From Tissierellales bacterium (GTDB lineage: Bacteria > Bacillota > Clostridia > Tissierellales > Sedimentibacteraceae), in NCBI GenBank assembly GCA_018433765.1, contig JAHDQO010000013.1, forward strand, positions 1 through 64,000: a DNA stretch of 64,000 bases. The letters run 5' to 3'. The position numbers and the translations under genes were made by a program. The stretch's first letter is position 1, and each line of letters opens with the position of its first letter. Positions 20,551 through 57,755 of this stretch are shown piece by piece. The notes beneath the pieces were generated by a model. It searched no databases and had not been told where the DNA came from. It worked only from the letters and a program-made list of their open reading frames with translations.

Positions 20551-23500
20551 TTAATCTTGTATTGTTACTTCAATCCAGTCCGTAGATGGTATTACTTTAC
20601 CAGCTTTATCACATAATGAATATCTGTAACTAGCAGATGGTAATTTAGGTTGTAGTCTTAACTTAACTTTATCATTCTCATTTATTTTAAATCTAATTTC
20701 ATCATTTAAGTAGCTAAAATCAACGTCATCTATTTTAGTTTCTCCACCATTATAAAGTCTATATACTTCATCATTAATCATTATTTGAAAATTACCTATT
20801 ATGCATTCTGAATAATCATCGTCATAATCACTTGCATAAATATCTAATTTCTTATCTGATAGATCGTATACAGCATTATCTAGTGTTGGAATAGGTGCAT
20901 TAATTTCTTCATTTTTATATGTTTCTTCTATTTTTATAATAGATCCATCATATAACTTCATATTAGTTATTTTTATATTTAGATCACCTGATTTTGGTAA
21001 GTCTTTACCATTATTGATAATATACCAATTTTTTTGACGTTTAAATTGTGACGAATTATTTCTAGTAATAGAATTATTAAATTCTATTTCTTTATTGCCA
21101 TATGTCGCAAGTTTTTCAAAGTTACTATTTAATAGTGAATTATTGAATGAAATCATCATATGAGTTTTATCTTCTGAAAAATATATTTTATCAATACCTA
21201 ATTCAGATGAACGAATATTTTGGTATTCATAATTCATCATTATATTTCCACTTTCATCTTTAATATTAGTTCCTTTATATTCAACAACTAGATTATTAAT
21301 ATCTGAATCAGAAACACTTGATAAGCCACTAACATTTAAAACTATTCTTTGACAATTTCCAACAGTCTCTACTATTACATCACCAGTAACTGATACTCCT
21401 TCAATATTTTTTATAATAAATTCATCCGAATTTGCAGTAGAATTCATATCTAAATCATATGCATTTGATAAATAGCAATATATCTTAGTTTTGTCGTTAT
21501 TTATTACTAAATCATCTATATAAGGTGCATCTTCATCAGAATCTAATTCAGCAGATAATGTTGGCGTAACATCTACTATTGTAGGAAATTCAGATATCCT
21601 ATCATTTTGCTCAATAACGAAGCCTGCAAATGCATATTCATATTTGTAGCCACCTATTTCTACGCAATGCTCTTCAGTATCATTAATTTTTATTCTTTGT
21701 GCTTTACCATTAAGAACAGTTGTAATTCCAACATGTCCATCTAGTATTGAATCCACACTTAAAACAGAATAATAATTACCTTCTGAAAAGACCATTGATA
21801 CTACTGCTTCACTTGAGTCTTTAAGCTTAATATAAAGCTTGGGTTTTTGATTTTCAAATTTTAGTTTAGGATATCCGTCTGCAAATCTATCATCTTTGTA
21901 GCTAAGAATTTCTTCAGCTTTCTCTTCATCAATTCCTTTTTGCAGTTCCCACTTCCAATATAAAGTCAAATCGCTTGTAACTTTGCTACCATAAAATTCT
22001 TCTTTATAGCTACTATCTTTATACCAATGGTTATATGCATCGTATCCATATTTATACATATAAGGGCAATCAAGTGTTTCGCCAGCTGGAACTTCAATAT
22101 CATCTATAATATAATTATCGTCTCCAGTATCAAAACTAACAGTATAAGTTTCACCTGTAACTTCTTCAAGTACAGTAACTTTTAAATTTATTATTGTGCT
22201 TATATCATTGTTATTAGCTACATCGCTTGGCAATGGTAATTCAGCTGTAAATGTATAATTTTCAGGTTTTGAAGAGTCATATTCACCATCACAACTCCAT
22301 TTAACTTCACTAATATCAACATTTTTTGTATTATCATTATTTAATACAATTTGTATTTCTTTAGGAAATGGAATATCACTTTCTTCTGTTCCGTATTTTA
22401 CTGAGATATCATCTAATGAATCAATTGATTTGAGTTCATATGCATTTATAACGCTAACAGTAACTGATAAACTTCCCTTATATACATCATCTTTGTCTTT
22501 TATATGAGATGGTAATTTAAAATCTGATGTTGTAAATGTGTAGTCGTTGTTAGTGTTGGCATCATAGTTTTCACAAATCCAAGAGCATTTACCAATACTA
22601 GTATTTTCTATCATGCCACTTGCTAAATTAAGTTCTACATTTTTTGGGAAATTTATTGTATCTATTTCAGTTCCATTTATAACTGATATAGTCTTAAATG
22701 GATTAATACTTTCAAGCTGATCATATACAGTAACTTTTCTAGTAATTTCAGCTTTATTTCCTGCAGAGTCTGTGACACTATAAGTTATAGTGAAATCTTC
22801 ACCTCTAGATGTATCTATATTTTCTAATTTATCATTAATTGAATTAGTAATAGTTACTACTACATCATCAGAAGTTAAAGTATCGTCATTAATTGTTACA
22901 CCTTTATCTATATATGTACTTCCAACAGCAATTTCTATTTCATCTTCTCCAATAAGAGTAAGCTCTGGTGCTGTATTATCTATTGTTAAGCTGTTAGTAC
23001 TTTTAACTGCAAAGTCAATTTCGTTTAAGTCTTTATTTACTATATAAGCGTATATCTTATCGCCTTCTTCAAACTTAGATAAATCAACTGTAGTTTCTTC
23101 TTCGTTTACACATACTGCATTATCTAAATTTTCTAGTTCATCAGTACTAAAATATACTATATATCCTTTAGGAACTGCTTTTATTTCAGTAGCTGTTGTA
23201 TTAGTAGTTCCTTTATTTTCAGAAATTATAGAGTCTGCAAGTTCTTGAGAAGGAATAAAATTATACTCAAGATCAAATGTACATTTTACATTTTCTTTGG
23301 CTTTATTTGCTGTAAAAGTTATAGCAGATCCAGTTGGATTATCTATAGTAAACTCTTCAACTGTCATTTCCTCAGCTATTTGTTCTGCTAAGTATTTTGC
23401 AGATTTATCATCCTTAAGAATTATTTTACTACTTCTTGAGTCATTGAATACTGCTGTAACAACTACTGTATCTTCAGCTGTACCTTCAAGAGTAACAGTA

Positions 23501-25755
23501 TATACTTGAGGAACTCCAAAAGTAGGTTCAGCACCTTCTACACAGCTATCTGCATTTCTTTCAGCAGTAAGTCCGTCAGTTTCTGCTAAGTTACCTTCAC
23601 AAGTTATATTTGCTTCCATTTTAATCTTTTTAAAAGTTATAGCAGATCCGCTAGCAGTAACAGTCCAATCAGCTATTTCTGTGTTAGCTAAGCCTTTAGC
23701 TATAGTCTCTGCTGTTTCATTTTCTTCAGAAGTTGTATAATTTAATTCTTTATCTTCACCGTCATTAAAAGTAAATGTAATTGTTTTATCAGTAGTAACA
23801 ACTGACCCCTTAAGGTTATAAACTTCAACTTGTACTGCTCCGCCTGTACAGCTAACACCATCAGTAGTATTTAAACCCTTATAAGTTATTCCAAGAGGTT
23901 TAGCATCTTCTGCTATAACAGTTACTTCAAAAGTTTTAGTATCACTTGCATCACCACAGGTTAATGCTGCAGTAAGTGTAACAACAGCATTATCTAGTCC
24001 TGCTATTGGTCTTGTTACTTTACCATCTATACTGATAACATCTTCGTTATTTGAAGTCCAAGTAACTGATACTCCATCTTGTTTTGTAACTAAAACAAGG
24101 TCATCTGTAACCTTTGATAAATCACCTGCTATTTTTAAGTTAGATTTAGCAGTAGCTACTTTTTCAGTATTAGTTGGTCTTGAAGGAGTTGAGTGTCCAC
24201 CACTTGAATGACCTGAATCACCGCTTGATGGTTTATCAGCAACACTTGTATCTCCTGTTGAAGGTTTTCCTGATGTAGTTGATGTTTTGCCATCTTTTAA
24301 ATCTTTTCCACCAGCTTTTGTTCCTTCAATACCTTTAGATACTGAAACTTCTGTACCTTTAGTATCTATTGTTACATTATCTGCTTTAACACTTACAGTT
24401 CCAGTAGTTCCTGTACCTTTAAGTGTAAATCCTTCAGAACTTTTTTCTGCTGTAACTTTATTAATTGTACCTACACAATTTACAGTTACATTCTTAGACT
24501 GTATGCTTAAATCAGAAATTGAAACATCTTCTTCAACATTTAAAGTAGAGTTTTTTGATTCAACATCAAAACTTGTTACTGTACCTTTACCTTGAAGGTT
24601 TAACTCATCTACACCTGATTTAAGAGTAACTGATTTAATCTTACCATCTGCAACTAAATTAATGTTAGTAGATACGTCCATATTATCAATATTAGATTTT
24701 TTATCAACTAATACATTAACATCTTCAGCAGAAACATCTAAATTAGCAAAGCTTCCTTTTATAAGGATATCTGAGTCTTTAGCAACTTCTGGTGATATAA
24801 CTACACTTTCAAAACCAGTTCCTTTTAGTTGTTGTTCTACTAATATAGCACCTGAGTTAAGCTTAGCAACTTTAACTTCTGTTTTTCCGCTAGCTACTAT
24901 TCTTACTTTACCATCTTTCTTTTGTACAACTAATCCGCCTTCTACTGTACAGTTATTAAAGTAAACAGAGTTTTCTCCACCACCACGTACTTTAACATCT
25001 CCTGTAACAGTTACATTATCAAGATTAACTTCACCATTGCCAACTCCTTCTGCAATGATTAAATCACCTTTAACTGTTGATCCTTTTAGTTTTACATCAG
25101 CTGTATTTATTATGACATTTCCATCAAAATCTTTAGTAACTGTACCTGCTGTATTTATCCATTCTGCAATCATGTTATCTACTATTCTAACAACTGCAGC
25201 TCTGGTAATAGATTTTTCAGGTGCAAAAGATCCATCAGGCATACCGTCAATATATCCTTTTTTACTAAAAGCGTTTACATATCCCTTAGCCCAACTTGCA
25301 ATTTTATCATCATCGTTAAATGATGTTTTGCCATTTACTTCAACAATACCCATTGCTCTTGACAGCATAACAACAGCTTCTTGTCTTGTAATACTGTCCA
25401 TTGGTCTAACTAAACCATTAGAACCATTAATTACACCGGCATTACTATTCTTTAGTATTGCTTCTGTGTACCAATCATTACCTAAATCTTTAAATACGTT
25501 TTTGCCAGTCTCTTGATAATCCATTAGTCTATCAATTACTACTGACATTTCAGCTCTTGTGATGTTGTCTTCTGGTTTAAACATTCCATCACTACCTTGT
25601 AGAAGACCTTTTTCTGACCACTTGTTAATTTCACTGCTTGCCCAATGTCCATCAATATCGCCATAACTTACGGCAAATACTGCTGCTTGTCCAAAAGTAA
25701 GCATAAAAATAAGAAGTGCACAAATAAAGGTACTTACACTTTTTTTACCTTTCAT
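20551..25755 (-). CDS. giant SLH-domain surface protein with beta-solenoid-like and Ig-like regions
   Basis: A 1734-residue secreted protein. A signal peptide (about 1-29, FGQAAVFAVS) is followed by three SLH domains (about 31-200, each with ITRAE, ITRQE or ITRAA). Next come short valine- and threonine-rich repeats (about 205-480, such as LKGSTVKGDLIIAEG) like a beta-solenoid, and a Ser/Gly/Pro/Thr-rich linker (about 490-535). The rest contains Ig-like domains: an atrophied Ig-like module, a DUF5011-type module (APELTLIGEDEIEIAVGSTY) and a Listeria-Bacteroides repeat (TYTVSFDTGDDNYIIDDIEV). SLH domains bind pyruvylated wall polysaccharide, so this is an S-layer or S-layer-attached protein. 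RBS AGGAGG precedes the ATG. Confidence 0.85.
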   Translation of the reverse strand: MKGKKSVSTFICALLIFMLTFGQAAVFAVSYGDIDGHWASSEINKWSEKGLLQGSDGMFKPEDNITRAEMSVVIDRLMDYQETGKNVFKDLGNDWYTEAILKNSNAGVINGSNGLVRPMDSITRQEAVVMLSRAMGIVEVNGKTSFNDDDKIASWAKGYVNAFSKKGYIDGMPDGSFAPEKSITRAAVVRIVDNMIAEWINTAGTVTKDFDGNVIINTADVKLKGSTVKGDLIIAEGVGNGEVNLDNVTVTGDVKVRGGGENSVYFNNCTVEGGLVVQKKDGKVRIVASGKTEVKVAKLNSGAILVEQQLKGTGFESVVISPEVAKDSDILIKGSFANLDVSAEDVNVLVDKKSNIDNMDVSTNINLVADGKIKSVTLKSGVDELNLQGKGTVTSFDVESKNSTLNVEEDVSISDLSIQSKNVTVNCVGTINKVTAEKSSEGFTLKGTGTTGTVSVKADNVTIDTKGTEVSVSKGIEGTKAGGKDLKDGKTSTTSGKPSTGDTSVADKPSSGDSGHSSGGHSTPSRPTNTEKVATAKSNLKIAGDLSKVTDDLVLVTKQDGVSVTWTSNNEDVISIDGKVTRPIAGLDNAVVTLTAALTCGDASDTKTFEVTVIAEDAKPLGITYKGLNTTDGVSCTGGAVQVEVYNLKGSVVTTDKTITFTFNDGEDKELNYTTSEENETAETIAKGLANTEIADWTVTASGSAITFKKIKMEANITCEGNLAETDGLTAERNADSCVEGAEPTFGVPQVYTVTLEGTAEDTVVVTAVFNDSRSSKIILKDDKSAKYLAEQIAEEMTVEEFTIDNPTGSAITFTANKAKENVKCTFDLEYNFIPSQELADSIISENKGTTNTTATEIKAVPKGYIVYFSTDELENLDNAVCVNEEETTVDLSKFEEGDKIYAYIVNKDLNEIDFAVKSTNSLTIDNTAPELTLIGEDEIEIAVGSTYIDKGVTINDDTLTSDDVVVTITNSINDKLENIDTSRGEDFTITYSVTDSAGNKAEITRKVTVYDQLESINPFKTISVINGTEIDTINFPKNVELNLASGMIENTSIGKCSWICENYDANTNNDYTFTTSDFKLPSHIKDKDDVYKGSLSVTVSVINAYELKSIDSLDDISVKYGTEESDIPFPKEIQIVLNNDNTKNVDISEVKWSCDGEYDSSKPENYTFTAELPLPSDVANNNDISTIINLKVTVLEEVTGETYTVSFDTGDDNYIIDDIEVPAGETLDCPYMYKYGYDAYNHWYKDSSYKEEFYGSKVTSDLTLYWKWELQKGIDEEKAEEILSYKDDRFADGYPKLKFENQKPKLYIKLKDSSEAVVSMVFSEGNYYSVLSVDSILDGHVGITTVLNGKAQRIKINDTEEHCVEIGGYKYEYAFAGFVIEQNDRISEFPTIVDVTPTLSAELDSDEDAPYIDDLVINNDKTKIYCYLSNAYDLDMNSTANSDEFIIKNIEGVSVTGDVIVETVGNCQRIVLNVSGLSSVSDSDINNLVVEYKGTNIKDESGNIMMNYEYQNIRSSELGIDKIYFSEDKTHMMISFNNSLLNSNFEKLATYGNKEIEFNNSITRNNSSQFKRQKNWYIINNGKDLPKSGDLNIKITNMKLYDGSIIKIEETYKNEEINAPIPTLDNAVYDLSDKKLDIYASDYDDDYSECIIGNFQIMINDEVYRLYNGGETKIDDVDFSYLNDEIRFKINENDKVKLRLQPKLPSASYRYSLCDKAGKVIPSTDWIEVTIQD

Positions 25756-25830: not shown

Positions 25831-26049
25831 TTTAGAAAATAGGGACAGTTTTTATTTTGCTAAAATTATAATATACTAGATAAAAAACCTAATATTTGCT
25901 TAATATATTACAAAATACAGCAAAATTTTCAATTAATTGGTCTTATATTTTGCTATATTTAGGTAGTAAATTATTTGAATGTTTTTTTTTATCATGTATA
26001 ATAATTACAATAATATTTCAAAAATAAGTAATGTTTTATGAGGTGCATT

Positions 26050-26715
26050 ATGAAACAACAAGAAATTTTAATTATAGAAGATGACGATACTATTGCTTTT
26101 GGAATAAAAGTTTTTTTAGAGAAAAAAGGCTTTAGGGTTTATCATGCTGAAAACATAACAGAAGCTGAAAAAATTTATGTTAATAAAGATTTGATTATTT
26201 TAGATTTAAATCTTCCAGATGGAAATGGTTATGATTTCTGTACATACATAAAAAGTAAAACGGATATACCTATAATAATTCTAACTGTGCGAGACGAAGA
26301 AGAAGATATAGTAAAAGGTCTTGATATAGGAGCCGATGATTATATAACAAAACCTTTTAAACTAAGCATATTATTTTCAAGGATAAATGCGGTTTTACGC
26401 CGAACTAACAAATCAGAACAAAGAGATATATTGAAATGTGGAAATATTACATTAAATAAATCTAAAACTACTGCTTATATAAAAGGTAAAGAAATAAATT
26501 TAACTGCTGGTGAATATAGGCTACTGCTTATGTTTATAGAGAATAAAAATCGAACTTTAGCAAGAAATATTTTAATAGAAAAGTTATGGGATACATATGG
26601 CAACTTTATAAGTGATAATACTTTAACTGTTACTATTAAGCGGCTGCGTGAGAAATTAGACAACACAACTCAAATAAAAACTATACGTGGTATTGGTTAC
26701 AGATTGGAGAATTAA
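26050..26715 (+). CDS. OmpR-family response regulator
   Basis: A 221-residue DNA-binding response regulator. The receiver domain has acidic residues EDDD at 10-13, phosphoacceptor Asp52 in LILDLNLPDG (about 48-57) and Lys in KPFKLS. A winged-helix OmpR/PhoB domain ends in KTIRGIGYRLEN. I chose the ATG at 26050 because GAGGTG lies 6 bases upstream; an ATG four codons earlier lacks a site. The kinase gene starts one base after its stop. It should control the ABC transporter genes downstream, as in BceRS- or VirRS-like peptide-sensing modules. It is a paralogue of the regulator at 52364. Confidence 0.92.
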   Translation: MKQQEILIIEDDDTIAFGIKVFLEKKGFRVYHAENITEAEKIYVNKDLIILDLNLPDGNGYDFCTYIKSKTDIPIIILTVRDEEEDIVKGLDIGADDYITKPFKLSILFSRINAVLRRTNKSEQRDILKCGNITLNKSKTTAYIKGKEINLTAGEYRLLLMFIENKNRTLARNILIEKLWDTYGNFISDNTLTVTIKRLREKLDNTTQIKTIRGIGYRLEN

Positions 26716-26716
26716 T

Positions 26717-27880
26717 ATGGAAAAAAAATCAAGAATATTATTAATTAGTAGTATAGCTTTGTTAATTGTTTTTATACTTTTCAGTATAGTTTTATCAAAC
26801 TTAATTGCATACAACAACTATAATTATAATGCTAAAATTATTGGAGCTGTAATAAAGATTGATACTAATAATGAAGAAAAGATAATGATGAATATTAAAA
26901 ATTCACAAGAACAAGACTTAGGAAGCGAAATCCTAAATAAATACGGATATAGTAAAAGGGATTTTTTAAATTACAATGATTTGTACAGTAAAATTACTTT
27001 GTTATTTTTAATTGTATTGGGTGTATTTCTTTCTATTTTTATTTTAATAGATAGACAAAATAAAAAGAAAATAAATGAACTGACTAATTATCTTTCCTCC
27101 ATTAATAGTGGAAAGGAAAGTGTACTGCCTAAAAGCAATGAAGATAGTTTCTCATTATTACAAGATGAAATATATAAAACAGTAATTGAACTCAAACAGT
27201 CTAAACAAAGAGCTGTGACTGCAAATAATTCATATTCTAAAAATCTTGCTGATATTTCGCACCAACTTAAAACGCCCATTACATCTATGTCTTTAATGAA
27301 TGAACTATTAAGTGAAAATAATGAAAATAAAGTATATACTCAAAAACTACAAAATCAAATAAAACGTCTTGAATATTTAGTAACTTCGCTTCTTACTTTA
27401 TCTAAAATAGATGCGGGTACACTTCAGTTAAAAAGAGAAAAAGTTGATGTTTATACTTTACTTTTAAGTGCCATAGAACCTATAGAAGATGTTATTAAAC
27501 AGAAAAATCAAACTATTGAAATCAAATCTGACAAGGAAGTTATATATATAGGTGATGAAAATCAAAGCAGAGAAGCGATTTTAAACATATTAAATAATTG
27601 TTCTGAGCATACACCTGTGAATGGTAAGATAACCTTGTCTTATGATCAAAATTCTATTTATACACAAATTATAATTGAAGATAACGGAGAAGGATTTGCA
27701 AAGGGAGATATACCACATATATTTAAGAGATTCTATAAAGGTAAGAACAGCGGTAAGGACAGCATTGGAATAGGACTAGCTCTATCAAAATCAATTATAG
27801 AAAAACAAAATGGATTTATTACTGCTGAAAACAAAAAAACAAGAGGAGTAAAATTTATTATAAAGTTTTATGCTAATTAA
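26717..27880 (+). CDS. sensor histidine kinase
   Basis: A 387-residue membrane kinase. Two membrane helices (about 9-31 and 93-113) enclose a short extracytoplasmic region of about 60 residues. A linker leads to a HisKA domain with His182 in DISHQLKTP, then the catalytic domain with N-box NILNNCSEH and G-boxes EDNGEGF and GIGLALSKS. The start is the ATG at 26717 with TTGGAGA upstream. It forms a pair with the response regulator before it, and an ABC transporter follows by 65 bases. The small sensor loop suggests that the stimulus is sensed in the membrane or through the transporter. Confidence 0.9.
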   Translation: MEKKSRILLISSIALLIVFILFSIVLSNLIAYNNYNYNAKIIGAVIKIDTNNEEKIMMNIKNSQEQDLGSEILNKYGYSKRDFLNYNDLYSKITLLFLIVLGVFLSIFILIDRQNKKKINELTNYLSSINSGKESVLPKSNEDSFSLLQDEIYKTVIELKQSKQRAVTANNSYSKNLADISHQLKTPITSMSLMNELLSENNENKVYTQKLQNQIKRLEYLVTSLLTLSKIDAGTLQLKREKVDVYTLLLSAIEPIEDVIKQKNQTIEIKSDKEVIYIGDENQSREAILNILNNCSEHTPVNGKITLSYDQNSIYTQIIIEDNGEGFAKGDIPHIFKRFYKGKNSGKDSIGIGLALSKSIIEKQNGFITAENKKTRGVKFIIKFYAN

Positions 27881-27945
27881 TTTTCAAATGTCACTAAATT
27901 GTCATTTTACTTTAGTAAGATGTAATCATCAAAGGAGGAATATAT

Positions 27946-28629
27946 ATGGAAATTTTAAGATGTGAAAATCTTACTAAAACTTATGGTACAGGACAGCGTA
28001 TGGTAACTGCTCTTAATAATGTAAGTTTATCAATTGACAAAGGCGAATTTGTTGCAGTTGTTGGAGCATCAGGAAGTGGAAAATCAACACTTCTGCATAT
28101 GTTTGGTGGAGTTGATACACCTACTGAAGGAAAAATATTTATTGAAGATACTGATATTGCATCATTGAATGAAACTTCTTTAGCCGTATTTAGACGTAGA
28201 AAAGTTGGACTCATATATCAGTTCTATAATCTAATCCCATCATTAAATGTAAAAAAGAACATTCTTTTACCTATACTTTTAGACGGTAGAAAACCTAATG
28301 AAGATCGATTTAACAGCATTGTTAAAACTTTGGGTTTAGGAAATAGGTTAACTCATTTACCTAATGAACTTTCTGGAGGGCAGCAGCAAAGAGTTGCAAT
28401 AGGACGATCTCTTATATATAGACCTGCAATTCTATTGGCGGATGAACCTACGGGTAATTTGGATAAAAAAAATTCAAGAGAAATAGTAGAATTTTTAAAA
28501 ATATCAAATAGACAATATAAGCAAACTGTTGTACTTATTACTCATGAAGAAGAAATTGCTTTAGAAGCTGATAGAATTATTACAATAGAAGACGGAGAAA
28601 TCATCTCAGATGAGGTGAGAGAATTATGA
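27946..28629 (+). CDS. ABC transporter ATP-binding protein (MacB/BceA type)
   Basis: A 227-residue ATPase with Walker A GASGSGKST, Q-loop IYQFYNLIPS, signature [12 protein letters not shown], Walker [14 protein letters not shown] and switch histidine in ITHEEE. It belongs to the FtsX-partner subgroup. Its TGA overlaps the ATG of the permease gene (ATGA), showing translational coupling. Start: ATG with AAAGGAGG 8 bases upstream. With the two-component genes directly before it, it resembles antimicrobial-peptide resistance or sensing modules of Firmicutes. Confidence 0.92.
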   Translation: MEILRCENLTKTYGTGQRMVTALNNVSLSIDKGEFVAVVGASGSGKSTLLHMFGGVDTPTEGKIFIEDTDIASLNETSLAVFRRRKVGLIYQFYNLIPSLNVKKNILLPILLDGRKPNEDRFNSIVKTLGLGNRLTHLPNELSGGQQQRVAIGRSLIYRPAILLADEPTGNLDKKNSREIVEFLKISNRQYKQTVVLITHEEEIALEADRIITIEDGEIISDEVREL

Positions 28630-31301
28630 ATATATTGAAAGAGTACACACTAGATTATATTAAGAAAAACAGAAAATCAAGTATTTCAATCATGATAGCT
28701 GTTTTTGTAGCTACTACTTTAATTTTTAGTATAGCTATATTTTTATATACGATGTATATGGATAATCTTGAAATAGCTATAGAAACTAGAGGAAACTGGC
28801 ATGGAGAACTTTTTGATGATACAAAAGGTAAAGACTTAAAGTATGTAACTGCACATCAAAATGTAGATAAATTGATGATAAAAGGACAGTGGAAGGCAGC
28901 AAAGATAAATGAAATCACGGAAAGTAAATATCCATACATTATATATAGAGGTGCAAATAAAGATTATTGGTTAGATATGCCGGATAAAGACTTAATTATT
29001 GAAGGAAGAGTACCTCAAAATAGTAATGAAATTGTTTTATCAAAACAATACTTTGAGGCTAATCCACATATAAGAATTAATGATAAAATAACATTACCTG
29101 TTGGAAATAGAATAGATAATGGCATAATTTTAGAACCTCGTTCAACATATCGAGATGGAGAAAAATTTGTAACAAAAGAAGAAAAAACATTTACTGTTGT
29201 AGGTAAACTTGATGTTTCCAATTCGTCAGCATATCCTGCATTTACAGGAATGGTGTATTTAGACGAAAGTGAAATACTTCCAGAAGATGACTTGACAGTA
29301 TATTTAAGATTTAAAAACCCTAGAAAAATTTATACTGATTTACCTAAAATAGCAGAACAAGTTGGATTTGAAAAAGATGAATATGGAAATTATTTTATTA
29401 AATATAATGAAAGATTACTTTCTAAATATTTTATATTTCCGCCTCGCGATGAGCTTATAAAGCTTGAACAGTTAGCAGTACCTATTGTGTATCTTCTTAT
29501 AGCTGTGCTTGTAGTAAGCGTTTTTGTCTTCATTATACATAATGCTTTTGCTTTATCATTAAACTCTCGTATAAAACAGCTGGGAATGTTTAAAAGTGTA
29601 GGTGCTACACCTAAACAAATAAAAAAATCTGTAATATATGAAGGATTAATACTTTCTATTATTCCAATTCTATTGGGACTTTTATCGGGATATGGATTTA
29701 GCTTTTTAATTTTTGATAAGATTAATAATATAATTAGAAGTATGGAAGAAATGAATGATTATTACCTATACAATTTAGAAGCTGGAGTTCCTGTGATTAT
29801 TATTACAGTAATTTTAGTTTTGATTACTGTATGGCTTTCAGCATTAATACCAGTAAAAAAAATAGCTAAAAAAACACCCATTTCTGCTATAAGACAGACT
29901 AATGCTGCTAAAACTAAGAAATCAAAAGATTATCCTTTTATAACAAAATTGTTTGGATTTGAAGGACAGCTTGCTATGAATTTCTTAAATTCTTATAAGA
30001 AGTCATTTAGAACAGCATTAGTTTCTCTAACTTTGTCTTTTTTACTGTTTACTATATTTTTAAATATTATTGAACTTAGTAATGCTGCAAAAGAAATCTT
30101 TCCAATGACTAAAAAGAATAATGATATTTCACTGCACATAAAAGATGGAACAGCTTTAGAAAGAGATGCTATTGATGAATTTAGTAATATTAAAAATATT
30201 GATGAAATTACTTTTAGTTATGAAAAGATACTGGCAACATATTTTTTAGACACAGACGAGTCTAAAGAAATTAAACAGAGCGGCGGTTTTAAAAGAATTG
30301 CAGAAGAAAACAAATATAGTTTAGTAAAAAAGAATGAAGCATATCGAATAAACACACAGATAGTAGCCATTGATGATAAAAGTTTTACTGAATACTGTAA
30401 TAATCTAAATATAGATCCAAAAGAGTATTATGATATAAATAATAAAAAAGCAATAATCATAAATGATGTGGTGGACGTTTATAACAGTACTCCTAGAGAT
30501 ATCACCAGAATTAAATTTCTTAATATAGAAAAGGGAGATGAACTTACTATAAGTGAAAAAGCATATGACAGCAGTGTAGGAGATTATGAATTTAATATCG
30601 CAGTAGGAACTGTAACAAACAAATATCCAGAGTTTCACCAATACAATTATTTTGATCACTATACACTACCTGTTATTATGCCTATAAGTGTATATGAAAA
30701 CATTGTTTCAAATTTTCATCCTGAAAATAAAACTAGAAGTCTTTGCAGTTGGGTATACATAAATTCAGATAGGGATAAAATTCCACAGATACTTAGTGAT
30801 ATGAACAAAATAACAGATAAATATTATGGAATCGGAGACATTCATTATTGGAATACAATAAAAGCTGAAGAAGACAATAAAAACTCTGATTCTATAATAA
30901 AACTAATTGTATATAGCATAGCTGGATTATTTGCTTTAATAGGTATTGTCAATGCATTTACAACAGTAAGTACAAGTATAAAACAAAGAAAAAGAGAGTT
31001 TGCAATGCTTCGAAGTATTGGAATATCTCCAAAAGGCATGAATAAAATGTTATTGCTTGAAGGTGCTTTTTTCGGTCTTAAGCCAATTATAAACTCCTTA
31101 CCAGTAATATGCATAGTTATACTTATATCTCTAAAATTTACAGGAATATATTTGAGTGAATTTATTGCAGTAATGCCAGCTATTCCGATTATTGGTTTTG
31201 CAGTGCTAATTTTAGCCTTCATTTCTTTGGCGTACTTTGTATCTCTAAATGATATAAAGAGAGAAACAATTGTAGAAGCTGTGAAAGAAGAAATTATATA
31301 A
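28626..31301 (+). CDS. FtsX-family ABC permease
   Basis: An 891-residue membrane protein. A first helix (about 17-41) is followed by an extracytoplasmic domain of about 240 residues and three helices of an FtsX block (about 285-420). A second unit has a helix near 455-475, another extracytoplasmic domain and three final helices (about 755-885). Cytoplasmic coupling loops SRIKQLGMFKSVGATPKQI and KQRKREFAMLRSIGISPKGM are clear. It is longer than BceB and closer to the YtrF/MacB-like duplicated permeases. It is coupled to the ATPase before it and closed by a hairpin at 31332-31369. The substrate is unknown. Confidence 0.88.
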   Translation: MNILKEYTLDYIKKNRKSSISIMIAVFVATTLIFSIAIFLYTMYMDNLEIAIETRGNWHGELFDDTKGKDLKYVTAHQNVDKLMIKGQWKAAKINEITESKYPYIIYRGANKDYWLDMPDKDLIIEGRVPQNSNEIVLSKQYFEANPHIRINDKITLPVGNRIDNGIILEPRSTYRDGEKFVTKEEKTFTVVGKLDVSNSSAYPAFTGMVYLDESEILPEDDLTVYLRFKNPRKIYTDLPKIAEQVGFEKDEYGNYFIKYNERLLSKYFIFPPRDELIKLEQLAVPIVYLLIAVLVVSVFVFIIHNAFALSLNSRIKQLGMFKSVGATPKQIKKSVIYEGLILSIIPILLGLLSGYGFSFLIFDKINNIIRSMEEMNDYYLYNLEAGVPVIIITVILVLITVWLSALIPVKKIAKKTPISAIRQTNAAKTKKSKDYPFITKLFGFEGQLAMNFLNSYKKSFRTALVSLTLSFLLFTIFLNIIELSNAAKEIFPMTKKNNDISLHIKDGTALERDAIDEFSNIKNIDEITFSYEKILATYFLDTDESKEIKQSGGFKRIAEENKYSLVKKNEAYRINTQIVAIDDKSFTEYCNNLNIDPKEYYDINNKKAIIINDVVDVYNSTPRDITRIKFLNIEKGDELTISEKAYDSSVGDYEFNIAVGTVTNKYPEFHQYNYFDHYTLPVIMPISVYENIVSNFHPENKTRSLCSWVYINSDRDKIPQILSDMNKITDKYYGIGDIHYWNTIKAEEDNKNSDSIIKLIVYSIAGLFALIGIVNAFTTVSTSIKQRKREFAMLRSIGISPKGMNKMLLLEGAFFGLKPIINSLPVICIVILISLKFTGIYLSEFIAVMPAIPIIGFAVLILAFISLAYFVSLNDIKRETIVEAVKEEII

Positions 31302-31331
31302 AAAAAATCACTTATTTCTATTACATGAAGG

Positions 31332-31369
31332 AGCTCCAACTAATATAATTTATTTTATTAGTTGGAGCT
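31332..31369. terminator. AGCTCCAACTAAT hairpin, copy A
   Basis: AGCTCCAACTAAT and ATTAGTTGGAGCT form a perfect 13-bp stem. It lies between the convergent FtsX permease and radical SAM genes, so it probably terminates both. Two relatives occur at 32728-32770 and 45147-45180. Confidence 0.75.
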
Positions 31370-31410
31370 ATTAAGTATTATCAGTAGTTTTATGCTTTCT
31401 TGGATGCTTC

Positions 31411-32667
31411 TTAATTTCTCTTTTCAACAATTTTATGAGCAGCTTTTTCCTGCAATAAAAATTCATAGACAACTTCTGGTGGGAAAGAAACTTCTTCTGA
31501 AATATCTCTCAATGTTTTAAAATCTGTAATTGCATCTAGTATTTTTATACCTTCAATAGTGTATTCAGTATTTAAGCCTAAATTAGGATAGAAAACTTCA
31601 TACCTATCTTTAGATTTTATTATTGAATAAGGTTTATCTAGTTTAAATTCAGCATCTAATGGCAGTGTTAAGTCATTATTTCTTTTCATAACTTCAGTAC
31701 AAATTGATGGAACCTTAAAGTTTGTTCTAAGAGGACAAGGCATGCAAATCTCTTTATGCTTACACATACTGCATGTAGTATTTTTATTTTTTTCATGTAA
31801 AATCTCTAAGAATGGTTCAAACTGGCTAAAATCATCTTTCCAGCTACTCGTATCTGTTATTTTTAAAATTATATCATTATTATTGTAGCAAGTCTTAATG
31901 TTTCCATAAGGATCAGCATAAATTGAATTAGTCATTACATCACATGCTTTTTCTTGTATTTTGTAATTAGTTCCATACTTTCTATTTAAATATTCATTCA
32001 AAATAGGATAATTGTCTAAAAAATTTATTTTAAGATTGGAATTATTAATATGATATTCAGCAATTTTTTCAAAAAAGTCTAACAGTTCATAAGATTTCAT
32101 TTCAAACATTTCTTTATTTATTTTAGCATTTCCATCTATAGCTAAATTATTTAGCTGATATATTATATCAAGATTTTTTGTTGCTTCAATAAAATTAATT
32201 ATTTCATTACTGTTTAATTTGTTTATAACAATGTTTACACCTAATAATGTTTTTCTTACCTTATTTTTGTTGATGTTTACTAGATGATTCAATGAATTCA
32301 TTGATTTTTTCCATGATCCTATACCTCTTATCTTATCATTAGTTTCTTCTAGTCCATCAATACTAACCATAATTGAGGATATATCGTGTTTCATAATATT
32401 ATCTAGTTTTTTTATGTCAGATTGACCGTTTGTGATTAAAAAAACATCCATTCCATTTAAGTTTGCATATTCTATTACTTTTTCAATTTCTGGGTATAAA
32501 AGAGGCTCTCCTCCTAATAATGATATACAATCTACAAAATCTTTACAATAATCTATAATTTTTCTCCAATCTTTGTTTATTGTTTCATTTTCATTAGTTA
32601 ATTTTACTGCGCCGCAGTGCTTACATTTTAAATTGCACTTATTAGTAATATCCCATACTAATTTCAC
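31411..32667 (-). CDS. radical SAM/SPASM peptide maturase
   Basis: A 418-residue enzyme. The radical SAM cluster motif is Cys11, Cys15 and Cys18 (CNLKCKHC), followed by LLGGEPLLYP, the glycine-rich SAM-binding motif. The SPASM region carries many cysteines (ACDVMTN, GNIKTCYNN, CSMCKHKEICMPC, PSICTEV) for auxiliary clusters. The last 80 or so residues (PYSIIKSKDRYEVFYPNLG) look like a PqqD/RRE-type peptide-recognition domain. Such enzymes crosslink or epimerise ribosomal peptides. The start is GTG with GAGGTGA upstream. A 26-residue Cys-rich peptide gene lies just upstream on the same strand, so this is probably its maturase. Confidence 0.85.
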   Translation of the reverse strand: MKLVWDITNKCNLKCKHCGAVKLTNENETINKDWRKIIDYCKDFVDCISLLGGEPLLYPEIEKVIEYANLNGMDVFLITNGQSDIKKLDNIMKHDISSIMVSIDGLEETNDKIRGIGSWKKSMNSLNHLVNINKNKVRKTLLGVNIVINKLNSNEIINFIEATKNLDIIYQLNNLAIDGNAKINKEMFEMKSYELLDFFEKIAEYHINNSNLKINFLDNYPILNEYLNRKYGTNYKIQEKACDVMTNSIYADPYGNIKTCYNNNDIILKITDTSSWKDDFSQFEPFLEILHEKNKNTTCSMCKHKEICMPCPLRTNFKVPSICTEVMKRNNDLTLPLDAEFKLDKPYSIIKSKDRYEVFYPNLGLNTEYTIEGIKILDAITDFKTLRDISEEVSFPPEVVYEFLLQEKAAHKIVEKRN

Positions 32668-32727
32668 ATTATCACCTCTAATATCTATATAAAAATCTTA
32701 GTCTTTATTTATGTAAGGTATTATGAA

Positions 32728-32770
32728 AGCTCCAACTAATTAAAGTTAATCAACTTTATTAGTTGGAGCT
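32728..32770 (-). terminator. AGCTCCAACTAAT hairpin, copy B, between peptide and maturase
   Basis: The 13-bp AGCTCCAACTAAT/ATTAGTTGGAGCT stem is extended by an inner AAAGTT/AACTTT stem. Lying between the precursor gene and the maturase gene, it could act as a leaky attenuator that keeps peptide mRNA in excess. Confidence 0.65.
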
Positions 32771-32852
32771 AGAAGTAGTACCAGTCTTTATTTCTTTAGT
32801 TATTTTTCGCTTTTCTGGTCTCTTCTTCTAATTATAGTAGACGTTATAAGCT

Positions 32853-32933
32853 TTAACTACATTGACAACAAACTTCCCATGGGTATACATTCTTTCTGTC
32901 TTTTTTTACTTGTTTTTCTTTAACTATAAACAT
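32853..32933 (-). CDS. 26-residue Cys-rich peptide, candidate RiPP precursor
   Basis: The minus strand carries AAAGGAGG, 7 bases, then an ATG opening a 26-residue frame that ends in TAA. It starts MFIVKEKQVKKDRKN (a basic, leader-like half) and ends VYPWEVCCQCS (a core with three cysteines in the last five residues). A near-consensus sigma-A promoter lies about 130 bases upstream. A radical SAM/SPASM enzyme gene follows on the same strand, separated by a hairpin. This is the arrangement of ribosomally made, post-translationally modified peptides; I recall similar short clostridial peptides of the Clo7bot type. No export gene is adjacent; the ABC modules nearby could serve. The peptide is inferred, not recognised by family. 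Confidence 0.68.
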   Translation of the reverse strand: MFIVKEKQVKKDRKNVYPWEVCCQCS

Positions 32934-33061
32934 TAAAAACCCTCCTTTATATAAATTTAAATGACTATTTATATAATCATTTATTTTCTTAGTAAAAAAG
33001 AAGTAAAATACAAAATTTATAATTAATAATAAATATAGAGAAAAATGTCAATTTTACCTTT

Positions 33062-33090
33062 ATTGTACACATAAATATACAGCTTGTCAA
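33062..33090 (-). promoter_or_regulatory. sigma-A promoter of the peptide/maturase genes
   Basis: Minus strand: TTGACA, 17 bases beginning AGCTGT, then TACAAT. It is strong by consensus and points at the peptide gene. The same sequence recurs at 45525-45553. The 339-base gap 32934-33272 also holds the prdR leader, with a possible -10 (TATAAT) near 33191 on the plus strand. Confidence 0.8.
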
Positions 33091-33272
33091 TAAATTGTTA
33101 AAAATATGAAAAAAATAGGAAATTTATTACTACCTTTTTTTTGTTCATTAATAATTAATACATTTTTATTTCTATGCTTTACCTTTTGATGTATAATGAG
33201 TTCATTAATATATAAAAAATATTTATATTTAATAAAATATTATAAAATATTTAAATAAAGGTGGTGTAAAGC

Positions 33273-35030
33273 ATGTTTCTCAAGCTGCACAATATTATTT
33301 CAGAAAATGTTATGTCTAAAGAATATTTCTCAGTTGAAAAAACCTGCAAAATGGACATGGTTATAAAGATCTTGTTAAATAATAGAGGTAAAGAGGTATT
33401 TGTTACTGATAATAATACTAATAAATTTATCGGTGTAGTGACTTTATCAGATGTAATAAAAGTACTAAATCATAAGTCGATTAAAAATCTGTTACTAGAA
33501 GAAATTATGACTAAAAATATATTAACTGTTAATACAGATAAAAAATTAACAGAATGCTATGATATTATGACTTCAAATAAAGTCAAAAGACTGCCAGTTT
33601 TAAAAGATGATAAATTAGTAGGGGTAGTAAGAAAAGAAGATTTAGCAAATATTTTGTATGAAAAAATTAATAGTTCAAATGTAGTTTTAAAATACATATT
33701 TAATAACATACATGAGGCAATATGTGTAGTTGATGCTGAAGGAAAAGTTGTTATTTGGAACAAGAATGCTGAAAAATTATATGGAGTTAGTCAAGAGATA
33801 ATAAGAGGTAAATATTTAAAAGATTTTTTTCCTAATGCAATAGATGTAAAGATTCTTAAAACAAGAAAATCAGTTAAAAATATTTATCATACACCAAAAG
33901 AAGGATGCCCAATAATAATAAGTGCATCACCACTAATAGTTGATGGAGAACTTTATGGAGCTGTAAGCACAGATAAAGATATTTCGGACATGCAGAGCTT
34001 ATATAGTGAATTAAAAAAGGCTAATAAAAAAGTTGAGTTCTTAAAAGATGAAATGAAAAAAATCACCTCTAACAATTTTGGCGATATAATTGGAAAAAGT
34101 AAAAAAATTAGAGATAAAATAGAAATGTCTAAACAAGTTTCTAAAACCAATGCAACTATATTAATTTCTGGTGAAAGCGGTACTGGCAAGGAAGTTTTTG
34201 CAAGAGCTATATACGAGTATAGCGGTGTCAAAGGATGCTTTATTCCTGTTAACTGTAGTGCAATTCCAAATGAGTTATTTGAAAGAGAATTCTTTGGATA
34301 TGAGAAGGGTGCTTTTACTGGAGCTAAAAAAGATGGTAAAATAGGGCTATTTGAATTAGCTGATGAAGGAGTACTTTTTTTAGATGAAATAGGAGATTTG
34401 CCGTTGTTTATGCAGGTTAAATTATTAAGAGTTCTTCAAGAAAAAAGGTTAAGAAGAGTTGGTGGCGAAAAATATGTAGACTTAAATATTAGGATTATTT
34501 CAGCTACAAACAAGGATTTAGGAGAATTAGTTAATAAAGGTGAATTTCGAGAAGACTTATATTATAGATTAAATGTTATAAAAATTGAGCTTCCTCCATT
34601 ACGAGAAAGAGGAGAAGATGTATTTTTACTAACTAATTACTTTTTAAATGAATTATCTATAGCAAATAATAAAAAAGTTCCTAAAATAAGCAGAGAAGTT
34701 GTGGACATGTTTATGGAATACGATTGGCGTGGGAACATTCGAGAATTAAAGAATACTGTTGAACATTTAGTCGTTTTATGCAGTGATAATGTTATTACAG
34801 CAGATATGATACCTAAATATATAATTAATAGAATTTGTACAAAAAAAATAAAAGAAGAGAATTACACAAATGATAACTTAGATTTAAATAAATCAGTAGA
34901 GAATCTAGAAAAAGAGTATATTAAAAAAGCTCTGGAAATATCAAATGGTAGTAAAGTTAAGGCAGCAATGCTTTTAAATATTCCAAGAACCACATTGCAT
35001 TCAAAGTTAGAAAAATATACTATTAAATGA
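33273..35030 (+). CDS. prdR: sigma-54-dependent activator of proline reductase genes, PrdR
   Basis: A 585-residue enhancer-binding protein. Two CBS domains (about 5-125, FVTDNNTNKFIGVVTLSDV and RLPVLKDDKLVGVVRKEDL) are followed by a PAS domain (about 135-245, AICVVDAEGKVVIWNKNAE). The AAA+ domain has Walker A GESGTGKE near residue 300 and the GAFTGA loop at about 346-351. A Fis-like helix-turn-helix ends the protein (KAAMLLNIPRTTLHSKLEK). The CBS-PAS-AAA order and the position next to prd genes match PrdR of Clostridioides difficile, which activates proline reductase genes when proline is present. Start: ATG with AAAGGTGG. The promoters of prdF and prdC are sigma-54 type, as this protein requires. 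Confidence 0.92.
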   Translation: MFLKLHNIISENVMSKEYFSVEKTCKMDMVIKILLNNRGKEVFVTDNNTNKFIGVVTLSDVIKVLNHKSIKNLLLEEIMTKNILTVNTDKKLTECYDIMTSNKVKRLPVLKDDKLVGVVRKEDLANILYEKINSSNVVLKYIFNNIHEAICVVDAEGKVVIWNKNAEKLYGVSQEIIRGKYLKDFFPNAIDVKILKTRKSVKNIYHTPKEGCPIIISASPLIVDGELYGAVSTDKDISDMQSLYSELKKANKKVEFLKDEMKKITSNNFGDIIGKSKKIRDKIEMSKQVSKTNATILISGESGTGKEVFARAIYEYSGVKGCFIPVNCSAIPNELFEREFFGYEKGAFTGAKKDGKIGLFELADEGVLFLDEIGDLPLFMQVKLLRVLQEKRLRRVGGEKYVDLNIRIISATNKDLGELVNKGEFREDLYYRLNVIKIELPPLRERGEDVFLLTNYFLNELSIANNKKVPKISREVVDMFMEYDWRGNIRELKNTVEHLVVLCSDNVITADMIPKYIINRICTKKIKEENYTNDNLDLNKSVENLEKEYIKKALEISNGSKVKAAMLLNIPRTTLHSKLEKYTIK

Positions 35031-41923: not shown

Positions 41924-42649
41924 ATGAGTTTAACAGTAATAAAAGGTTTACAGTCTGAAATATATGTTCCTATTACTCCACCAGTAGTTTGGACTCCTGT
42001 GGAAAAACCATTAAAAGACATGACGGTAGCGATAGCAACTGCTGCTGGCGTGCATTTAAAATCAGATAAAACATTTAATCTTGCAGGGGATACAAGTTAT
42101 AGAGTAATTCCCGGCGATTCTGACAGCAAAGATTTAATGGTATCTCATGGAGGCTATGACAATAGTGATGTGAACAAAGATATAAATTGTATGTTTCCAA
42201 TAGATAGGTTAAGAGAGTTAGCAGAAGAAGGATTTATTAAAGGAATTGCACCTAAACATGTTGGTTTTATGGGTGGAGGAGGAGACGTACAAGTCTTCAA
42301 AGAAAAAACAGGCCCTGAAATTGCAGAAATATTATTGAATGAAGGAGTTGACGCAGTTTTACTAACTGCAGGCTGAGGCACCTGCCACCGCTCTGCCGTG
42401 ATTGTGCAGAGAGCGATTGAAGCAGCTGGAATTCCTACTATTGTAATAGCTGCATTACCTCCAGTTGTTAGACAAAATGGTGCACCAAGAGTTTCTGCTC
42501 CATTAGTTCCTATGGGTGCTAATGCTGGTGAACCTAATAATCCTGAAATGCAAAGAGCTATAGTTAGAGATACATTAGAACAATTAGTTAAAATAGAAAC
42601 GCCCGGAAGAATAGTATCTCTTCCTTATCAATATATTGCTAAAATTTAG
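41924..42649 (+). CDS. prdB: selenoprotein PrdB, catalytic subunit of D-proline reductase
   Basis: A 241-residue protein if the in-frame TGA at 42374-42376 is selenocysteine, residue 151, in LLTAG-U-GTCHRSAV. The sequence on both sides is in one frame and forms one domain (LTVIKGLQSEIYVPITPP at the start, GRIVSLPYQYIAKI at the end). The selenol, with the nearby cysteine, attacks the C-N bond of the proline bound to the pyruvoyl group of PrdA. A strong hairpin follows the TGA by 12 bases, as needed for recoding. Start: ATG with AAAGGAGG. A gene caller would wrongly split it into two pieces. Confidence 0.95.
42389..42415 (+). promoter_or_regulatory. SECIS hairpin of prdB
   Basis: CGCTCTGC pairs with GCAGAG..CG (two-base bulge) around CGTGATTGT, 12 bases after the UGA. 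This GC-rich stem stands out in the AT-rich gene and has the position of a bacterial SECIS. Confidence 0.85.
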
Positions 42650-55341: not shown

Positions 55342-57755
55342 TGAACAGTTATCTATCAATTGTCAATAGGTATTTGGCAGCTCATAAAAAAAAGACTAGG
55401 CTGACAATGATTAGCATTGCTATATCTGTTGCACTTGTCACAGGTATTTTTTCTATGCTTGATGTTTTCTTACAATATGAAAAAATGCAGGTTATAAAAG
55501 ACATAGGCAACTATCATATTCTTGTACAAAATCCTTCTGAAAAAGAAATGCAGTCAATAAGCAGCCGTATAGATGTACAAAATGCAGGTAGATGGATAGA
55601 TTATGGAAGAGGTAGTATAAATAATATAAAATGCAGGCTTGGAGCTCTTGAAGAAAAAATTGCAGATAATTTTGATTTAAAAGTCTTAGAAGGCAAATAT
55701 CCAACTAATAAAAACGAGATCATGATTGAGAAGTGGACAGCAGAAAGCTTATACTTGGATAAAAAAGTTAATGATACTATTAAAATTACTTTTAATGAAG
55801 ATGATACTGAAAGAGAGTTTGTTATAAGCGGCATATACAATGATTTTGCATATATGAAAGCAGAAGGTATACCTGCTTTGCTTTTATCTAGCGATAGTAA
55901 TAATGAGATTAATAAATATAAAGACTTATATATGGTAGAATTTAAAAATAGAGTAAATATAAACAAAGCAGTTGAAGACATCAAGAATCAACTTAATATT
56001 GAAGGTGACAGAGTTGTTCTAAATGAACGCTTACTTGCTGTTATAGGACAAAGTAAGAATAGTTCTGCTTTGTGGCTGTATTCTACAGGAGCTGTTTTAT
56101 TTTTTATTGTTCTTCTAGCTGGAGTTGTTATGATATATAATACTTTTAATATTTCAGTTATGGATAGAATAAGGCAGTTTGGACTTTTAAGGTGTATAGG
56201 AGCTTCACAGTCACAGATAAAGAAAATAGTAAAAAGACAAGGGCTTATTATAACTTTAAAGGCTATTCCAATAGGTATATTTGCAGGTGTGATTATAACT
56301 TTTGCATGTTCCGCAATACTAAAGTTTTATAATAATAATTTATTTGGAAACATATCAGTATTTAATTTTAGCCCAATAGGTATAGCAGCAGGGATTCTTG
56401 TTGGCTTTTTAACTGTTTTTATAGCATCTTCACTACCTGCAAAAAAGGCAGCTAGTGTTTCTCCAGTCAATGCTGTGACTGGAAGTAATGAAACAAAAAC
56501 AAAAAAAACTAAGAAAAAAGGTCTTTTAACAAAGATTTTTCATGCTGATATTGCTATGGGAATAAATAATGCTACTATTAAAAAGAAAACACTTATATTG
56601 ATGTCGTGTTCAATAGCAATAAGTATTATTATGTTTTTAGGATTCAATGTGTTTATTGATTTCATGCATAAAGCTTTAAAAACTACTAAACCTTACACAC
56701 CAGATATTTCTTTAATATCAGAGGAAGGATTGAGCAATGATTTATATAAAGATCTATCAGATATAGAAGGTGTTAAAAATGTTTATGGTAGAATGTTTGG
56801 TTATGTTGATGCTACTTTTGATGCGGAAAAGCTGACAGATAATTATAAAGAAATGATGGAGGATATTGAAGTAACTGATAACGGTTTATTTATTCCTCCT
56901 GAAAAATCTTGGATAATATCTTATGATACAAACCAGCTTAAATGGGCAAAAACAGACTTGTTAGAAGGAGAATTATCCGAAGATAAAATGAATGAAAAAA
57001 ATGGAGTTATAGTAGTTGCTAGGCAGTTTAGAAACAATATTGCAACGCATACCACTAATCTACAATTAGGAGATAGTGTTTATATAAAAACACCTAATGG
57101 AACAAAGGAATTAACTGTTATGGGTATACTTCGAACAGTACCTTTTAGTGATTCAGAGTTAAATTTAACTACATTCATAACTACAGAAAAGTTGTTTACT
57201 GAATTAACTAATAAGTCACGATTTGAGGCAATTGACATACAGCTTAACAGTAGGAAAGATGAAAAAACTGTAGACGTTATCAAAAATAAGGTAGATGATT
57301 CTATTACCTATCTAGACGCAAGACAGAAGAATAGTGATATTAATCAAACATTTTTTACTATGGCACTATTTGTTTACGGCTTTGTAGCTGTTATAGCTTT
57401 GATTAGTATTTTAAACATAATAAATACTATGAACACAAGTATTACTAATAAAACTAGGTATTTAGGGGTAATGAGAGCAGTAGGAATGACAGGTAAACAA
57501 CTTGATAAGATGGTTTTAGCTGAAGCATTTACCTATAGCGTAGTTGGATGCATTGCAGGGTGCATACTAGGCGTTTTACTTCAAAAATTCTTAATTGAAA
57601 GCTTAGCCGAAACAATGACTATATTTTGGAAGTTTCCTTTAACACAGGTAATTTTTATAGTCATTATTACATCTGCTGTAACACTTTTATCAGTTATTAG
57701 TCCTTTGAAACGAATAAAAGCTAAGGCAGTATCAGAGGTTGTAAACTCATTGTAA
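55341..57755 (+). CDS. FtsX-family ABC permease
   Basis: An 804-residue membrane protein with two FtsX units. Helix 1 (about 18-40) is followed by an extracytoplasmic domain and three helices near 245-370. A fifth helix (near 425-445) is followed by a second domain and three helices near 675-800. Coupling loops MDRIRQFGLLRCIGASQSQI and TNKTRYLGVMRAVGMTGKQL are present. It is translationally coupled to its ATPase. With the kinase and regulator upstream this forms a sensing-and-response module like that at 26050-31301. The substrate is unknown; peptide antibiotics are common for such modules. Confidence 0.9.
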   Translation: MNSYLSIVNRYLAAHKKKTRLTMISIAISVALVTGIFSMLDVFLQYEKMQVIKDIGNYHILVQNPSEKEMQSISSRIDVQNAGRWIDYGRGSINNIKCRLGALEEKIADNFDLKVLEGKYPTNKNEIMIEKWTAESLYLDKKVNDTIKITFNEDDTEREFVISGIYNDFAYMKAEGIPALLLSSDSNNEINKYKDLYMVEFKNRVNINKAVEDIKNQLNIEGDRVVLNERLLAVIGQSKNSSALWLYSTGAVLFFIVLLAGVVMIYNTFNISVMDRIRQFGLLRCIGASQSQIKKIVKRQGLIITLKAIPIGIFAGVIITFACSAILKFYNNNLFGNISVFNFSPIGIAAGILVGFLTVFIASSLPAKKAASVSPVNAVTGSNETKTKKTKKKGLLTKIFHADIAMGINNATIKKKTLILMSCSIAISIIMFLGFNVFIDFMHKALKTTKPYTPDISLISEEGLSNDLYKDLSDIEGVKNVYGRMFGYVDATFDAEKLTDNYKEMMEDIEVTDNGLFIPPEKSWIISYDTNQLKWAKTDLLEGELSEDKMNEKNGVIVVARQFRNNIATHTTNLQLGDSVYIKTPNGTKELTVMGILRTVPFSDSELNLTTFITTEKLFTELTNKSRFEAIDIQLNSRKDEKTVDVIKNKVDDSITYLDARQKNSDINQTFFTMALFVYGFVAVIALISILNIINTMNTSITNKTRYLGVMRAVGMTGKQLDKMVLAEAFTYSVVGCIAGCILGVLLQKFLIESLAETMTIFWKFPLTQVIFIVIITSAVTLLSVISPLKRIKAKAVSEVVNSL

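Follow-up and report, generated by a model that had tools for sequence, protein, structure and literature searches.

The region at 31411 to 33090 of the window (the whole stretch of Tissierellales DNA that was analysed, 64,000 nucleotides) raises the question of whether a frame of only 26 codons, lying just upstream of a radical SAM/SPASM gene, encodes the substrate of that enzyme. An earlier note had read the two genes as precursor and maturase of a RiPP system. In our analysis, two bacteria whose neighbourhoods otherwise differ both have a short, conserved peptide gene just ahead of the gene for a complete radical SAM/SPASM enzyme. We give a probability of roughly 0.88 to the reading that these two genes make up a minimal RiPP system whose radical SAM enzyme belongs to an unnamed family. 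The features of the locus are as follows.

33062..33090, minus strand: promoter-like site TTGACA-N17-TACAAT, a consensus match only (11/12 positions)
32941..32948, minus strand: ribosome-binding site of the peptide gene, AAAGGAGG, read directly
32853..32933, minus strand: putative precursor peptide gene, ATG start, 26 codons encoding the 26 residues MFIVKEKQVKKDRKNVYPWEVCCQCS; frame conserved upstream of the orthologous maturase of Maledivibacter halophilus
32880..32933, minus strand: conserved leader-like part, residues 1-18, MFxVKEKxVKKxxKNVYP
32856..32879, minus strand: variable core-like tail WEVCCQCS (RGHCTDVCW in M. halophilus)
32728..32770, minus strand: intercistronic hairpin in the gap between peptide and maturase genes (-23.1 kcal/mol, z -5.2)
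32671..32678, minus strand: ribosome-binding site of the maturase gene, GAGGTGAT, read directly
31411..32667, minus strand: radical SAM/SPASM maturase, 418 residues, with a C-terminal RRE-like domain
32614..32637, minus strand: radical SAM cluster motif CNLKCKHC, residues 11-18, conserved in the ortholog
31699..31944, minus strand: SPASM cysteines, residues 242-323, all seven conserved in the ortholog
31414..31665, minus strand: C-terminal RRE-like domain, residues about 335-418, a predicted fold
31332..31369, no strand assigned: second hairpin, downstream of the maturase, with the same 13-bp arms (-19.1 kcal/mol, z -4.5)

The promoter, ribosome-binding site and 26-codon frame claimed by the earlier note are all present. 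Read along the minus strand, the order is promoter-like site, AAAGGAGG, 26-codon frame, hairpin, GAGGTGAT and a GTG-started gene of 418 codons. The promoter-like site is the best of 26 in the region, a number that does not exceed that found in shuffled sequence. A gene for a 26-residue peptide would be passed over by ordinary gene finders.

A scan of GTDB contigs revealed one true ortholog of the maturase, from M. halophilus, with 49% identity over residues 1-418. A 27-codon frame, MFKVKEKKVKKSTKNVYPRGHCTDVCW (L006, 5827-5910), precedes it there on the same strand and in the matching position. Conservation of the small frame beside maturase homologues, the test proposed for the RiPP reading, was therefore observed. 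The two peptides share 16 of 26 residues, 14 of them within the 18 residues of the leader, and the segment KNVYP is invariant. Their tails diverge apart from two cysteines, one of which stands second from the end; two of the three cysteine positions of the window peptide are kept, with a different spacing. Aligned with each other, the two peptides reach a score of 71. Shuffles give 20.3 +/- 4.5, with 49 as the highest of 5,000, and the runner-up among 1,265 M. halophilus frames, drawn from about 51 kb of partly overlapping stretches, has 37. Among the 18 leader codons, eight are identical, six differ silently and four change the residue. This is the pattern of what appears, from one comparison between the two known members, to be a translated and selected leader followed by a variable core. 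Two loci thus show the arrangement typical of a RiPP system, in which a short precursor gene, constant in its leader and variable in its core, stands next to the gene of a modifying enzyme. On this evidence, to which the fold of the enzyme's C-terminus adds further support, we consider it very highly probable that the peptide and the enzyme stand in a precursor/maturase relationship.

Two further observations concern M. halophilus. Just upstream of the pair, a short frame (L006, 5251-5502) resembles by eye an N-terminal fragment of an HtpG-like chaperone and is perhaps a gene remnant marking an insertion. About 4 kb downstream lies a separate RiPP cluster (L006, 11406-13056, continuing into L036, 10465-15378) encoding a TIGSVSG-repeat peptide, a radical SAM/SPASM enzyme, a 479-residue protein and an ABC exporter. 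This cluster resembles the TigE system of Paramaledivibacter.

The description of the larger gene as a radical SAM enzyme with SPASM cysteines holds. Pfam detects Radical_SAM (PF04055, 68.4 bits), and CNLKCKHC is followed by a complete SPASM pattern, C242-x-G255x4C260-x-C299x2C302x5C308x2C311-x-C323. Exactly ten cysteines are common to both enzymes: C11, C15 and C18 of the radical SAM motif and C242, C260, C299, C302, C308, C311 and C323 of the SPASM region. The CxxxCxxC motif and seven SPASM cysteines of radical SAM/SPASM peptide maturases are accordingly present in both members. The start codon is GTG in the window (32667; stop at 31411) and TTG in M. halophilus. Comparison with NCBIfam yielded no model at its cut-off for the peptide, and none for the maturase among the best 25 of 59 matches, the highest being TIGR04317 (80 bits against a cut-off of 380). 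The models for the ranthipeptide maturase PapB (NF047865; 53.6 bits against 340), mycofactocin MftC (TIGR03962; 70.8 against 265) and PqqE (TIGR02109; 49.3 against 381.35) all fell short. Since every model shown scores far below its cut-off, the maturase belongs to no named NCBIfam family. When a profile of the two orthologs was compared with solved structures, the sactisynthases SkfB and CteB were best, and SuiB was also in the list.

The last ~80 residues form the most conserved stretch of the maturase: identity between the two species is 61% in this domain, 52% in the radical SAM core and 38% in the SPASM region, and the high conservation of the domain parallels the conserved leader. The earlier note had described a PqqD-like tail. 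Pfam gave no match for a C-terminal PqqD-like domain, whereas structure prediction supports an RRE-like fold here. The model comprises four strands, three helices and a final strand (beta4-alpha3-beta; pLDDT 88.6), an element order that agrees with the definition of RREs (PMC12710340). Structural interpretation is confined to this domain, the full-length model being poor (pLDDT 50). A Foldseek search of the PDB returned almost exclusively RREs as top matches (TigE, TbiB1 with leader, PqqD, MccB and McbB, with CteB lower), the best E-value being 6.8e-3. A second aligner gave Z of about 8-10 to those RRE proteins, values matched or exceeded by some winged-helix domains of non-RiPP proteins. Profile comparison of the domain with a nif11-class-3 maturase and with a GDL-type maturase returned nothing. 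The C-terminus is thus predicted, by modelled fold alone, to be a RiPP recognition element, with a putative role in leader binding.

We considered whether the neighbours belong to the same system. Upstream and divergent lie PrdR, which regulates the D-proline reductase operon and scores above the NF041552 cut-off, and then a proline racemase. Downstream and convergent (26038-31301) are a response regulator, a histidine kinase, a LolD/MacB-type ATPase and an 891-residue FtsX permease, and the earlier note had proposed that this sensor/ABC module handles the peptide. The module would then be an immunity or export part, an addition to the two-gene reading rather than a replacement for it. It adjoins the pair, FtsX-type ABC modules often handle peptides, and the LolD/MacB-type ATPase shows similarity, below cut-off, to the darobactin exporter model. 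However, the module lies on the opposite strand, no homologue of its permease occurs within about 20 kb of the M. halophilus pair, and the permease has two paralogues elsewhere in its own genome, one of them at 55356 in the window. The proposal is consequently unsupported, and we judge such a role unlikely. The other three components, regulator, kinase and ATPase, are represented over the same distance by generic paralogues only. Because M. halophilus lacks specific equivalents and the permease has paralogues in its own genome, the pair looks like a stand-alone unit; no protease, exporter or immunity gene was found to travel with it.

Other frames of the window were noted in passing. The second FtsX-type permease (55356-56810) is 29% identical to that at 28626-31301. 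A PrdB-like frame (41924-42649) is interrupted in frame by a stop (VLLTAG*GTCHRS), which the selenocysteine of D-proline reductase would lead one to expect. On the minus strand, 20551-25755 encodes a 1734-residue protein with N-terminal repeats that by eye are S-layer-homology-like; it has no NCBIfam match at 1e-5.

From these features we propose how the two-gene system might operate. The RRE-like domain would bind the basic leader MFxVKEKxVKKxxKNVYP and keep the cysteine tail positioned in the active site. A 5'-deoxyadenosyl radical, made at the [4Fe-4S]-SAM cluster (C11, C15, C18), would abstract hydrogen from one of the core residues, whereupon the auxiliary SPASM clusters could bind a cysteine thiolate and accept an electron, giving a thioether or other cross-link. 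Thioether chemistry is favoured on two grounds: no core residue other than the cysteines is kept in both species, and sactisynthases are the closest relatives with solved structures. We place its probability at about evens. A protease and exporter encoded elsewhere would release a peptide of about 8-10 residues, perhaps a competition or signalling molecule, a role for which the odds appear evenly balanced. The peptide gene has a strong ribosome-binding site and an ATG, the maturase gene a GTG/TTG start, a contrast that fits an excess of substrate over enzyme; the intervening hairpin may set their transcript ratio.

The conserved KNVYP could belong to the modified region instead of the leader. 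Taken further, this suggests that the peptide is indeed the substrate, yet that NVYP is what becomes modified, the product being small and cofactor-like, as with PQQ and mycofactocin, and the cysteine tail a discarded follower. The invariance of KNVYP is consistent with this, the weak NCBIfam matches include mycofactocin and PqqE maturases, and an RRE/PqqD partner with a very short precursor is PQQ-like, the PQQ precursor being very short too. Conversely, the maturase scores far below the cut-offs of both those families, and no other cofactor-pathway genes were recognised near either copy. Moreover, mycofactocin uses a C-terminal Val-Tyr, whereas VY is internal in this peptide. We therefore consider a cofactor-like product quite improbable.

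The hairpin in the gap had been labelled an attenuator. A hairpin is present (32770-32728), and a different one occupies the same place between peptide and maturase in M. halophilus. No run of U (T in the DNA) follows that of the window, which sets it apart from a textbook terminator or attenuator, and intercistronic hairpin is the better name. Its 13-bp arms (AGCTCCAACTAAT / ATTAGTTGGAGCT) are identical to those of the hairpin at 31332-31369, such that the two bracket the maturase gene; exact copies of the arms occur only at these two places in the 4.19-Mb genome. Probably the twin hairpins are duplicated elements for processing or termination. We also considered, and rejected, a mobile cassette with the hairpins as its ends: the maturase alone is flanked, with the peptide outside, and no duplicated target site is visible. 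An Rfam search over 31300-33300 gave no meaningful match.

Attenuation bears on the reading of the peptide itself. The small frame might be a cysteine-sensing leader peptide that controls the radical SAM gene, with the enzyme acting on something else, and in both species Cys codons near the end of the frame are indeed followed by a hairpin. However, it is the basic N-terminal part that is conserved and not the cysteine codons (two of three positions kept, spacing different), the hairpin lacks a U-run, and the enzyme carries a predicted peptide-binding, RRE-like fold. Attenuation control is thus very unlikely. Least probable of all is that the peptide serves unmodified, in metal binding or signalling, and that the enzyme is merely its neighbour, a view that fits the Cys-rich tail and the lack of exporter or protease in the unit but not the persistence of the pair in unrelated surroundings, nor an enzyme with complete SPASM ligands and an RRE-like domain.

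We sought further members of the two-gene family using maturase queries against the genomes of the family (27), order (249), class (391) and phylum (398) and of the order of M. halophilus (297), and using peptide-profile searches of 297 and 321 genomes. No third member was found in about 1,300 sampled Bacillota genomes, nor in viral (IMG/VR), plasmid and phage collections. The two-peptide profile gave high significance at these two loci only (3.7e-18 and 5.2e-19). One weak match (L039, E 0.005), whose 3 kb contain no radical SAM gene, was attributed to chance. Within the genomes searched, which represent about half of known species, with class and phylum partly sampled and metagenomes outside the search, the peptide-maturase system is rare and patchy. 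In the collection of papers searched, none joined Maledivibacter and radical SAM.

The pair is thus a complete, self-contained two-gene candidate, and suggests that precursor genes of ~26 codons are overlooked beside orphan radical SAM enzymes. The earlier note had raised the possibility of a new class. The enzyme family is indeed unnamed, whilst a new class is unproven: short-precursor radical SAM RiPP systems were known before, and what we describe, with two members so far, is a new unnamed family within that kind. A bolder proposal makes it a new class, one of very small RiPPs whose single radical SAM/SPASM enzyme has its recognition domain built in at the C-terminus and forms an undescribed cross-link in a species-variable tail of 8-9 residues, on a precursor too short for standard gene callers. 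We regard this as speculative and rather doubtful.

Among known systems, the streptococcal RaS-RiPPs (streptide, streptosactin and others) comprise 16 subfamilies, of which some that contain cysteine make thioethers, and their operons have Rgg/SHP regulation and a transporter (PMC13361665). They share with the present pair a short precursor directly upstream of a radical SAM maturase. Here, however, the WgkB and StsB NCBIfam models match the maturase only weakly, neither an Rgg/SHP regulator nor a transporter was found in the unit, the neighbours being PrdR and the convergent two-component/ABC module, and the leader is unrelated to the motifs listed (PMC13361665). The Asn-x-x-Cys beta-thioether motif (PMC13361665) was also considered; the spacing in this peptide does not fit it.

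PqqA/PqqD/PqqE and mycofactocin MftA/B/C likewise combine a very short precursor, a SPASM enzyme and a PqqD-type domain, but here the PqqD-like domain is fused to the C-terminus of the enzyme, the tail is variable and cysteine-containing, and no cofactor genes were recognised nearby. Such a fusion is not a first, since a protein of another Bacillota genome (L031:1489-2976) already has one by Pfam, with the same order of radical SAM, SPASM and C-terminal PqqD (PF05402, 50.7 bits); it differs in scoring 108 bits to the family profile, in its length of 495 residues and in that no such peptide was seen upstream. In two genomes of one genus (L029, 878-3698, and L030), a radical SAM/SPASM gene adjoins a gene whose product has a PqqD domain (PF05402, 51 bits) at the N-terminus; the two may be a further unnamed RiPP cluster.

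TigE of Paramaledivibacter caminithermalis (PDB 8vpo) is the best Foldseek match of the RRE-like domain (TM 0.70, 22% identity). The matched RRE is at the N-terminus of TigE (residues 4-85), in contrast to its C-terminal place here, and the TIGSVS-repeat peptide cluster of M. halophilus is a unit separate from the peptide-maturase pair. Finally, the sactisynthases and ranthipeptide synthases SkfB, CteB and PapB resemble the present enzyme in joining radical SAM, SPASM and an RRE-like fold and in having Cys in the core of their substrates. Sactipeptides carry a Cys-to-alpha-carbon thioether in the product, and both cores here retain cysteines. They differ in that the precursor here has only 26 residues, and in that the enzyme, outside every named maturase family found, carries its predicted recognition domain at the C-terminus, the opposite end from that of the solved sactisynthase CteB (matched residues 2-75).
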